DNA of 64,000 nt from NCBI GenBank assembly GCA_021819085.1, contig JAKASJ010000012.1, positions 1 to 64,000 of the forward strand, in the 5' to 3' direction. Position numbers and translations under genes: made by a program. Positions 44,916-50,564 of the stretch are shown here, one piece after another (position 1 is the stretch's first letter; each line of letters starts with the position of its first letter). The notes under the pieces are model-generated. The model ran no database searches and was not told the origin of the DNA. It worked only from the letters and a program-made list of their open reading frames with translations. The stretch comes from Pseudomonadota bacterium. GTDB taxonomy: Bacteria > Pseudomonadota > Gammaproteobacteria > Acidiferrobacterales > UBA6901.

Positions 44916-45003
44916 CCGCATGGACCGCATGGACCGCATGGACCGCATGGACCGCATGGACCGCATGGACCGCATGGACCGCATGGACCGCATGGACCGC
45001 ATG
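44916..45003. repeat. 9-bp tandem repeat (VNTR)
   Basis: Nine perfect copies of CCGCATGGA run from 44916 to 44996, then a partial copy to 45003. The tract lies between the glycine-rich gene and tusA, both on the minus strand, in a non-coding gap. All frames through it stay open because the unit is 9 bp, which produces spurious repeat proteins. Confidence 0.97.
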
Positions 45004-45976: not shown

Positions 45977-47201
45977 ATCTTAGTACCCGATTCCAGAGCC
46001 TGTTGCACCACGTGCGACCGCCGCCACCGAACAGCCGCCGAAGCGGATGCAGAACGATCGTCCGGATCTTCCGGTGCCGGCACGCTCCGGCGCGCCAGGC
46101 AGCGGACCGAACGGGATCACGATACAAATTGCGATTCCATGGTTTTATGTAACGTACTGCCGCAACCGCCCGTACCGGATGAGGTGGTGCTGGCTTCTGC
46201 GAAGCCCGGACTGCCGAGATCAAGGCCCGCTCACGGTGCGGCGCTCGAACACATGCGCAGGATAGCAAGAAGCCACTGGCTGATCTATCCGAAGCCGGAA
46301 TCCGGATCGGAAAACCGGTGTTGCGGCAGTGCGCGCTCCGCCGATGGCGGCTTTGCCGCCAACCGCCGAGGCCGTGCACGCGCATCATTTGGCGTCCTCG
46401 CCCACAGCATGTCCGCCGAATCCCGCGCGCATCGCGCGCTGCCGTTGCGAACCATCTTCACGAAGTGCCCGGCGCCGGAGGGACCGCAGTGCCACCCGCC
46501 GGATTGCGGCGCGGGTGCAAGCAGCGTCCGGAAGCGCACGGTCGCAGTGGCAGCGCCGGTCTCGCTACCCACCCTCCGGGCATGGCCGTTTTCCAGACCC
46601 CGGATACCACCTGGAGACGCTGGCGCCGACACACCGGATGCCATGCCGGGCAAGCGCCGCGGCCCGGCGCAGGGGATCCTTGTCGTCGCTGTTGCCGCCG
46701 CTGTCGACAATATCGCGGGGCGATAAGAACGTTGCCATCTGGTCAAGCGTCCGCCGGGTCGAGTCATCCGCAGGAACCCTTAAGCCACACATGGCGCGGC
46801 CGCAAGTGGACCAACCGTTCCCGGGGATCGGCGGCCTCCACGAAAGAATGCGCCAACCCTGCGTCGGACCCGGGTCGATCCCTGCGCTCTCCCCGCTCCG
46901 GGTCCTCCCGATGGTCCGGACGGTCTGTCGCCTTAAACGCGTTCCGCCACCCCGGGTCTGCCGAACTGCGTCGAACATTCTTTCCCCCTCACACATCCTC
47001 CGCCCATCCGCTCACCGTGGCCGATCGCGGCATGCTCCACAGCGAACGCCGTGTCGCGCTCCCCCGTCCCTGCGACGGCGGGCATCACTTGCGCAGCAAA
47101 CCGGGTCATCTCCACCTCTATTGGTGGAATACCCCACTCAGAAATGCGCCCCGGGCCGCCGGAAATCAAATAACTGACTGTTTAATATAGCTTTCATGGA
47201 T
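45977..47201. other. Long gene-free region before the sigma-54 promoter
   Basis: Several long frames cross this GC-rich stretch, but none has a ribosome binding site, a recognisable product or sensible composition. The last 50 bp turn AT-rich and include an IHF-like site AATCAAATAACTG (47164-47176). Confidence 0.45.
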
Positions 47202-47217
47202 TGGCACAGCGATTGCT
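47202..47217 (+). promoter_or_regulatory. Sigma-54 (-24/-12) promoter
   Basis: TTGGCACAGCGATTGCTGA carries TGGCAC, then five bases and TTGCT, with GG (47203-47204) and GC (47215-47216) at the required 12-bp distance. The match to the -24/-12 consensus is close to complete. The predicted start site is near 47228. The first clear gene downstream is the histidine kinase at 47702, leaving about 475 nt of leader. Confidence 0.8.
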
Positions 47218-47701
47218 GACTCCCGGTCATGGATCACAGATCCCGTATTCCCGGTCGCATCAAAAGGCTGGCCCGGCGGACCGCGTGATGTCTGCCCACT
47301 CCGAACTGCTGCGCCCCCGATCCGGGCAGTGCCGTTCGTCTGTGGCGTTGTCCGGCTGCGCACCGCCGGATTGCCACCCCGGGGAACTGCCGGGCCCGGC
47401 AAGTATCTATCAGACATGAACTTTCTATCACTTGCATCCCGCGCTCAGCGGCCCGCAACACCAAATCGGTGGCAACCCGCCGGCCGGAACTGCCCGCGCC
47501 TGTCGATACCCCGGCGAGGCAATCGCCAGACTGTTCCGCCTTTTGCGGATCGGCGCGCTGCCTCGATGCGCTTCCCGGACAGACCTCGCCGTGTGACCGG
47601 GATGTCCGGTCCCGCACGGCGGCTGCATCCTGTGACACATACCAAGTCGGGGTAACGCCATGTCCGCATGCGAATCAGCTGTTCGACCGGAGGCTACAGA
47701 C
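47218..47701 (+). other. Transcribed leader or small RNA candidate
   Basis: The sequence after the sigma-54 promoter is non-coding by eye. It has several hairpins, including the perfect palindrome TGCCGGGCCCGGCA at 47388-47401. It could be a long 5' untranslated region of the kinase mRNA or a separate small RNA. No U-tract terminator was found. Confidence 0.35.
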
Positions 47702-49165
47702 ATGCCTATACCCGAATCGCGGCGCATGCGTACGCTTTTTGTCCGATCCGTTTGGCTGCCCGCGATCGTGTCCGCAGTACTGCTGCTGATCGCACTTGGC
47801 CTTCTTCTGAGCATGTCCTGGCGCAGTCTCGAGCGTCTCGAGCCGGTGCAACAGCACCGGGCACTCGTCAGCCGGATCGAAAACGCCGGGCTTAACCTTG
47901 AACAGGTCCTCGTAAAAAGCATCGGCAACAAACAGCCGGTTAGCGAACAGACCCTCAGGCAGTTGCGCAGCCAGTTCGCGGCGGTCGGCACCCTGGACAA
48001 CTATCTGGCGCCCAAGACACCGGCACGCATGAGGCGGATCGAGACTCTGCTGTCGGACCGCCGGGGCTCGCCGCGGGCCAAGGCGATCGAGGCGCTCGGT
48101 CTCATGCGCAATGTCCTGCTCGACGAGGTCCATGCCCACAACCGGCTCGTCGCGCGGGTGTACCGGAATACAGAAATGGAATTCCACGTGGTTCTCATGG
48201 TCATCATCGCGTTTCCCCTGCTTGCCATCCTCACGCTGTTCTTCCTGCGCCATCGCATCCTGCTTCCGCTCAACAACCTGCGTTCGCTGATGACGATGCT
48301 GTCCCAGCAGAACTACAGCGCCGCGCCCGTCAGCAATGTCGATCCCATGCTCCGACCGCTGTTTGAGAACTACAACGAGCTCGTCGGCCGCCTTGCCCGC
48401 CTCGAGGAGGCACGCAATGCGCGTCAGGAGTCTCTGGAAAAGGACGTGCGGGCTGCAACCCAGGCGCTGCTGGAACAGCAGCGCAATCTCGCCAGTGCCG
48501 AGCGCCTCGCCGCCGTCGGCGAGATCGCCGCCGGTCTGGCGCACGAGCTGCGCAATCCGCTTGCTGCCATCCAGATGACGCTTACCAATCTGCGCAAGGA
48601 GATGGCCAACACCGACCAGGTCGCGCGCATCGATCTGGTCATTGCCGAACTCAAGCGTCTTGCGCGCCTGTTGAACGATGTGCTGAGCGACGCGCATCAG
48701 GCGCCGGAGCCGATGAAGGTCGTGTCGCTAGCCAGGGTCGTCGATGAACTGCTGGCCCTGGCACGCTACCAGCTGCCCGAGCATGTGCGCACGGAGTGCA
48801 ATATCGTGCCGAGCCTTTCCTGCCGCCTTCCGGAGGACCGGCTGCGGCAGGCATTGCTGAATCTGATTCTGAATGCGGCTCAGGCGCTCGACAGCAAACC
48901 CGGAACGGTTGCGATCGATGCCCGGCAGGAGGATCACCGTCTTCGTCTCGAGATCCGGGATGACGGTCCGGGCTTCCCGCGCGACCTGCTGGACACCGGT
49001 ATAAGGCCCTTCGTCACCGGCCGCGAGCATGGAACCGGCCTGGGGCTGGCAACAGTCAGAAGGTTCGTCACCGATATCGGCGGCGAGCTGCACATTTGCA
49101 ATCAGGCACCTCACGGCGCCTGCGTCATCATGGATCTACCCTGCGGAGAGCTTCACAATGGCTGA
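47702..49165 (+). CDS. Membrane sensor histidine kinase
   Basis: The 487-aa kinase has two membrane helices (about 14-36 and 160-182) around a periplasmic helical sensor, then a HAMP-like linker, H-box HELRNPLAAIQ near 290, N-box NLILNAAQAL, G1 DDGPGFP and G2 GTGLGLATVRRF. GGAGG lies 8-9 nt before ATG 47702. It is followed by its response regulator with an 8-bp overlap. The signal is unknown. Confidence 0.92.
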   Translation: MPIPESRRMRTLFVRSVWLPAIVSAVLLLIALGLLLSMSWRSLERLEPVQQHRALVSRIENAGLNLEQVLVKSIGNKQPVSEQTLRQLRSQFAAVGTLDNYLAPKTPARMRRIETLLSDRRGSPRAKAIEALGLMRNVLLDEVHAHNRLVARVYRNTEMEFHVVLMVIIAFPLLAILTLFFLRHRILLPLNNLRSLMTMLSQQNYSAAPVSNVDPMLRPLFENYNELVGRLARLEEARNARQESLEKDVRAATQALLEQQRNLASAERLAAVGEIAAGLAHELRNPLAAIQMTLTNLRKEMANTDQVARIDLVIAELKRLARLLNDVLSDAHQAPEPMKVVSLARVVDELLALARYQLPEHVRTECNIVPSLSCRLPEDRLRQALLNLILNAAQALDSKPGTVAIDARQEDHRLRLEIRDDGPGFPRDLLDTGIRPFVTGREHGTGLGLATVRRFVTDIGGELHICNQAPHGACVIMDLPCGELHNG

Positions 49166-50564
49166 CACTTTACTGGTAATCGAAGACGAAATCCTTCTTG
49201 GAGCCGAACTCGCACGCCATTACCGGCGAGAAGGCTGGGAGGTTGTGGTTGCGACCACCCTCGCGCATGCCGAGCGCGCGATTGTGGACCAGCGTATCGA
49301 CCCTCTGGTCGTGCTGTCTGACATGAGCCTGCCGGATGGCAATGCGCTGGATCTTCTCGAGAAGATCCACAGCCAGCGTGGGGGCGCGGAGTGGATTCTC
49401 CTCACTGCTTACGGAAGCGTACCGGATTCCGTGCGCGCCCTGCGTCTGGGTGCGTTCGATTTTGTCGAGAAACCCTGTGACCAGGATCGGCTCGACATGA
49501 TCGTGGCGGGCGCCGCGCGCAGCGGTCGTGCCCAGCGCCGTCTGCAGGACGAGGCTGCAGCGCAGTCACGCAAATATCCGGTTTCGTCGTTTCTCGGGCA
49601 CAGCAATTCCGCCAGCGAAGTGCGCAACATGCTCACCAAGCTCAGCCATGTTCCGTTCAGCACACTGGTCGTCAGCGGCGAGACCGGAACCGGAAAAGGT
49701 CTGGCGGCGCGCATTCTCCACCACAGCGGTGCACGCCGCGAGGGCCCCCTCGTCGAGCTCAATTGCGCCGCTCTGCCGCGCGAACTTCTCGAGTCGGAAC
49801 TGTTCGGACACGAGGCGGGCGCCTTCACCGGTGCGCGCGGGCGGCACCGGGGCCTGCTCGAGCAGGCGCACGGAGGCACGCTTTTCCTGGATGAAATCGG
49901 CGAGATGGACCTGGATCTGCAGGCGAAGCTGCTCAAGGCAATCGAGGACCGGGCCATAAGACGCCTCGGCGGCGACCGGGAAATCAAAGTCGAGGTGCAG
50001 ATCGTGGCCGCCAGCAACCGCGATCTCGAATCGCTGGTGAGCGCCGGCCGGTTCCGGCAGGATCTGTTTCATCGCCTCAGCGTATTCCACCTTCACCTTC
50101 CCGCCCTGCGCGAGCGTCGCGAGGATGTGAATGATCTGGTACCGGCATTTCTCGCCGAGTTCAATACCAAGGCTGGAAAATCAGTGAAGTTTGTCCCGCC
50201 GGCGGTCCTGAGCAAGCTGCACGCCCACGACTGGCCGGGCAACGTACGCGAACTGCGCAACGTCGTCGAGCGCTGCGTGCTGTTCGCCGAAAGCGAAGTC
50301 TTCCCGGAACAATGGCTGCAGCTTCGCAGTGCCGCCGCTCCGGTTGCCGCTGCAGCGGCAAGCCCGACGGCAAACCACAATGATCACCTTCTGCTGCCTA
50401 TGGACGGCAGCATGGCGCTCGAGGACATGGATCGCCATATCATCCAGCGTGCCCTGGAACGTACCAACTTCAACGTCACTGCCGCCGCGCGGTCACTCGG
50501 GGCGACGCGCGAGACCCTGCGCTACCGCATCCAGAAGTACAACCTCGCGCGGCCCGGCAACTGA
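49158..50564 (+). CDS. Sigma-54-dependent response regulator (NtrC family)
   Basis: The 468-aa activator has a receiver domain with phospho-accepting aspartate in VLSDMSLPDGN near 55, an AAA+ domain with Walker A GETGTGKG near 175, the sigma-54-contact loop GAFTGA, Walker B GGTLFLDEIGEMD, and a C-terminal Fis-type HTH (FNVTAAARSLGATRETLRYR). Domain order matches AtoC and the TspR regulator of Acidithiobacillus sulfur oxidation. The specific role is not shown here. Confidence 0.93.
   Translation: MADTLLVIEDEILLGAELARHYRREGWEVVVATTLAHAERAIVDQRIDPLVVLSDMSLPDGNALDLLEKIHSQRGGAEWILLTAYGSVPDSVRALRLGAFDFVEKPCDQDRLDMIVAGAARSGRAQRRLQDEAAAQSRKYPVSSFLGHSNSASEVRNMLTKLSHVPFSTLVVSGETGTGKGLAARILHHSGARREGPLVELNCAALPRELLESELFGHEAGAFTGARGRHRGLLEQAHGGTLFLDEIGEMDLDLQAKLLKAIEDRAIRRLGGDREIKVEVQIVAASNRDLESLVSAGRFRQDLFHRLSVFHLHLPALRERREDVNDLVPAFLAEFNTKAGKSVKFVPPAVLSKLHAHDWPGNVRELRNVVERCVLFAESEVFPEQWLQLRSAAAPVAAAAASPTANHNDHLLLPMDGSMALEDMDRHIIQRALERTNFNVTAAARSLGATRETLRYRIQKYNLARPGN

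Follow-up and report, generated by a model that had tools for sequence, protein, structure and literature searches.

The closest described systems are two-component operons associated with sigma-54 promoters. In enterobacteria, the kinase and NtrC-type regulator encoded by zraSR (hydHG) are expressed from a sigma-54 promoter that is controlled by their own ZraR (PMC4987338). In the glmY-qseEGF (glrK/glrR) region of E. coli, the sigma-54 promoter ahead of the kinase genes is used for a small RNA; the qseEGF operon has a separate promoter and is not autoregulated despite the sigma-54 promoter upstream of it (PMC6075780). TspS/TspR of Acidithiobacillus is a further sigma-54-dependent pair of kinase and regulator, and its enhancer is likewise a dyad (PMC6335251).

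The locus reported here lies in a stretch of 64,000 nucleotides that was analysed as a whole (the window). Like zraSR, it places a kinase/NtrC-type regulator pair behind a predicted sigma-54 promoter, for which autoregulation is proposed; unlike zraSR, it has no divergent zraP-like chaperone gene, and its kinase and regulator score under the ZraS and ZraR cut-offs. With glmY-qseEGF it shares a sigma-54 promoter and an IHF site before a kinase operon, together with a second promoter-like element, but neither GlmY nor another conserved RNA was found in Rfam searches or in the relatives' alignments, TGT-N12-ACA enhancers were not identified, and the regulator scores under the GlrR cut-off. The likeness to TspS/TspR is one of layout, namely a kinase/regulator pair plus a candidate dyad, and the TspR enhancer (TGTCCCAAATGGGACA) differs from the dyad found here. 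A literature search found no paper on this promoter or on the RpoN regulon in the genus. The proposed mechanism is itself a textbook, familiar arrangement; what the analysis provides, for a genus that has been little studied, is a conserved and well-supported sigma-54 control region of an uncharacterised two-component system, a corrected kinase start, and a second conserved promoter-like element. The features of the locus, in window coordinates, are as follows.

46441-46783, minus strand: remnant of a gnd-type 6-phosphogluconate dehydrogenase gene, with a frameshift near 46612
47111-47128, no strand assigned: candidate enhancer, the dyad TCCACC-N6-GGTGGA with its centre near -108
47164-47176, plus strand: IHF-like match AATCAAATAACTG, one mismatch in the window, not conserved
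47171-47183, minus strand: IHF-like site, reverse complement of WATCARNNNNTTR with one mismatch, at constant spacing in four genomes
47202-47217, plus strand: sigma-54 -24/-12 promoter TGGCACAGCGATTGCT, exact consensus, kept in G003, G002 and G004
47228-47659, plus strand: predicted untranslated leader of 432 nt, non-coding and not notably structured
47383-47410, plus strand: promoter-like element GGAACTG-N16-TCTAT of putative ECF/sigma-E type, with fixed boxes and a variable spacer
47660-49165, plus strand: membrane sensor histidine kinase of 501 aa (Pfam HisKA and HATPase_c) with a helical periplasmic region
49158-50564, plus strand: NtrC-family response regulator (Pfam matches above cut-off), its gene sharing 8 nt with the kinase gene

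The sequence at 47202-47217, TGGCAC-N5-TTGCT, agrees with the consensus TGGCAC-N5-TTGCW at the correct spacing with no mismatches and is oriented toward the kinase-regulator pair, the predicted +1 falling at about 47228 when counted from the -12 C at 47216. No other exact match occurs in the window, where 0.08 would be expected under a first-order Markov model; when up to two mismatches were allowed, the window scan returned 34 matches against 34.5 expected, which is chance level. The genome encodes RpoN, as judged by a TIGR02395 profile match of 491 bits (cut-off 277).

Conservation was assessed in four other genomes of the genus (G001 to G004), whose kinase orthologues are 97, 85, 82 and 79% identical to that of the window; in two other genera of the family, no kinase match at the level of these congeneric orthologues was found. 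The promoter region was readable in G002, G003 and G004, and G001 was left out at this point because an N-gap in its contig covers the promoter position. Lack of conservation of the -24/-12 elements in relatives had been named beforehand as a result that would refute the promoter; when this was checked, the exact TGGCAC-N5-TTGCT was present in the same orientation before the same gene pair in all three readable relatives (four of four genomes with that of the window), the versions in the relatives being TGGCACAGCGATTGCT, TGGCACGGCGATTGCT and TGGCACGCCAATTGCT. The original prediction of a very good -24/-12 promoter is thus borne out by an exact, conserved match that is the sole one of its kind in the window. 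Comparison of the intergenic DNA with two more divergent species, by BLAST and ungapped three-way scans, aligned only short islands: one holds the promoter and the A+T-rich sequence just upstream of it, another is the element at 47383-47410, and a third, near 46930, lies towards gnd.

An IHF-like site upstream of the promoter had also been predicted, and such a site does exist at a fixed spacing, but it is the minus-strand site at 47171-47183 (TAACTGACTGTTT on that strand) and not the overlapping plus-strand match at 47164-47176, which is probably the one that was meant. In each of the four genomes the minus-strand site sits exactly 31 nt upstream of the -24 box; it is free of mismatches in L034 and has a single one in each of the others. 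The plus-strand match carries two mismatches in L031 and is absent from L032 and L034. The gene for IHF-alpha (ihfA) is present in the genome. On the far side of the IHF-like site from the promoter, the dyad at 47111-47128 is a candidate enhancer judged from its sequence and position, its centre falling within the range of 80-150 bp upstream that is typical of enhancers (PMC4987338). The perfect dyad is unique in the genome, but a perfect 6+6 dyad arises by chance in 27% of shuffles. It is imperfect in L032 and L034, the match in L034 being displaced by 10 bp. A degenerate version of the dyad combined with the promoter occurs once in each of three genomes, always at this locus, the pattern having been built from these same loci; further copies of the combination elsewhere in the genus genomes searched were not found.

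The kinase gene had been taken to begin at 47702, and this start requires correction: translation begins at the ATG at 47660, which adds 14 in-frame codons. Both this ATG and the N-terminal M-S-A are invariant in all five orthologues, a G-rich sequence preceding the ATG is common to the five, and the 42 nt from 47660 to 47701 differ from G003 by a single substitution. The structure model of the kinase reaches a mean pLDDT of 66, a modest quality. The regulator comprises a receiver domain, a sigma-54 AAA+ domain and a Fis-type HTH according to Pfam, and its translation contains GAFTGA; its best NCBIfam match, AtoC/NtrC, is below cut-off.

Between the promoter and the kinase, the original prediction had placed about 475 nt of structured non-coding sequence, which might hide an unnoticed small RNA. 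The non-coding part of this description holds; the predicted leader is shorter, and its folding energy is ordinary (z-score -1.3). Leader substitutions divide among the three codon positions as 24/16/13, as against 53 of 69 in one position in the kinase. A small protein hidden in the leader was considered and rejected, given substitutions without a codon pattern and no short open reading frame common to the species. The promoter end and the kinase ATG are 442 nt apart in both the window and G003, 702 nt apart in G002 and 351 nt apart in G004, and the predicted leader length thus varies about twofold between species. No terminator-like site was found between promoter and kinase in three species, and no Rfam family matched the leader at the gathering threshold; a weak antisense match to sul1, well under the threshold (19.3 against 36.2 bits), was ignored. 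The leader parts flanking 47383-47410 showed no alignment beyond chance, bar a marginal match of 13 nt (CCGGTCAnGGATC) that the window and L034 share close to the leader's 5' end, which 15 of 200 shuffles equalled. With no conserved RNA segment, terminator, Rfam family or unusual folding, and with a variable promoter-to-ATG distance, neither a small RNA nor a structured leader is supported.

A further conserved stretch, inside the leader at 47383-47410, reads GGAACTG-CCGGGCCCGGCAAGTA-TCTAT. In three divergent species, 18 of its 28 columns are identical, against a null maximum of 14 in 60 shuffles, and both boxes are the same in all three, 16 nt apart, around a spacer that varies. A GGAACT box and fixed boxes flanking a variable spacer are the look of an ECF/sigma-E-type promoter, in which a GGAACT -35 box and a TC-type -10 box are expected some 16-17 nt apart. 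The element is probably a second promoter of this kind. Its distance from the sigma-54 promoter is 165, 165, 302 and 179 nt in the four genomes. The genome encodes RpoE and several other sigma-70-family genes; the region upstream of rpoE itself did not yield an autoregulatory sigma-E motif like that at 47383-47410. Such a second promoter may bypass the long leader, and it may even be the main promoter for the kinase. Two other genomic sites with the related form GGAACTG-N16-TCTGA, in L074 and L075 (both at position 1501, oriented), lie before genes with signal-peptide-like starts and are possible ECF/sigma-E targets, the resemblance being only suggestive.

Taken together, these elements point, with moderate confidence, to a kinase-regulator operon that is positively autoregulated through sigma-54, supplemented by a second promoter. 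RNA polymerase with RpoN would use the promoter at 47202-47217, and the transcript would cover first the untranslated leader of 432 nt and then the kinase and regulator genes, which overlap (47660-50564). Bound at 47171-47183, IHF would bend the DNA, allowing an enhancer-binding protein bound upstream, with 47111-47128 as its candidate site, to reach the polymerase. The activator would most likely be the operon's own NtrC-type regulator once phosphorylated, hence positive autoregulation, and the element at 47383-47410 would probably provide sigma-54-independent expression. The elements with their conservation, orientation and spacing are observed, as are the genes for RpoN, IHF-alpha and RpoE; we infer the transcription start at 47228, the cognate regulator as activator and the user of the second element. 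This autoregulated reading is favoured because the conserved promoter faces the pair, an IHF site stands at fixed spacing, rpoN and ihfA are present, the regulator carries a sigma-54 AAA+ domain with GAFTGA, no terminator was found ahead of the kinase, and zraSR, whose sigma-54 promoter is under ZraR control, provides a precedent (PMC4987338). The earlier suggestion of an auto-activated system with a long leader is thus supported as regards promoter, orientation, IHF site and conservation, its autoregulatory step being inferential.

That the sigma-54 match is a chance resemblance devoid of promoter function is very improbable. Twelve exact matches are seen across the 3.42 Mb genome where about 4.5 are expected under the first-order Markov model, and some of the genomic matches are therefore accidental; the one at this locus, however, has been kept with its fixed-spacing IHF site in four genomes in which most of the adjacent non-coding DNA has diverged. 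A more serious contender, though still unlikely, is that the promoter does drive the operon but answers to another enhancer-binding protein, the pair being a downstream relay that is not autoregulated. The activator could be another such protein, as the genome holds further sensor kinases and has exact sigma-54 sites elsewhere, but the enhancer-promoter combination was found nowhere else in the genus, which fits a dedicated local regulator; such pairs, moreover, commonly autoregulate, as in zraSR (PMC4987338).

The glmY-qseEGF precedent lends some weight to an arrangement in which the sigma-54 promoter serves a small RNA (47228 to about 47380) and the kinase operon relies on its own promoter at 47383-47410, the E. 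coli layout likewise combining a sigma-54 promoter and IHF with a kinase operon that is transcribed from a promoter apart (PMC6075780). The marginal 13-nt match described above could be counted in its favour; yet the stretch from the promoter to 47383 shows no alignment beyond chance with L032, its length differs among the genomes, and the terminator, Rfam and folding results for the leader all speak against it, so that we regard it as improbable. We rate slightly lower again its particular form in which a glmY-qseE-like layout arose independently, the small RNA evolving fast and bearing no relation to GlmY, and an ECF sigma promoter of its own driving the kinase operon. Autoregulation from the sigma-54 promoter is accordingly the preferred reading over these alternatives.

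The intergenic region had been described as gene-free, a description that fails for its upstream part, where a decayed gnd-type gene that is intact in relatives was located by tblastn with the relatives' proteins (themselves gnd_rel matches above cut-off). In G002 and G004 the whole gene is open, the window and G003 carry degraded copies, and in G001 the assembly gap masks part of it; another gnd-type gene is present elsewhere in the window's genome. Since the promoter has been kept although the divergent gnd gene has decayed, it serves the kinase-regulator pair and not gnd. Towards gnd, the intergenic region holds a block at about 46931-46958 with a AACGCGTT core that is conserved in three species; it may be a promoter for gnd or a site where a regulator binds at a distance. 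Elsewhere, a further exact sigma-54 site at L045:304-319 (TGGCACGGCGATTGCT, the same letters as the L032 version) lies a short distance upstream of an open frame with a signal-peptide-like start. Finally, a perfect 9-nt tandem repeat, with 9.8 copies of CCGCATGGA, occupies 44916-45003 between a TusA-like gene and the 6-phosphogluconolactonase gene and leaves frames open on both strands.
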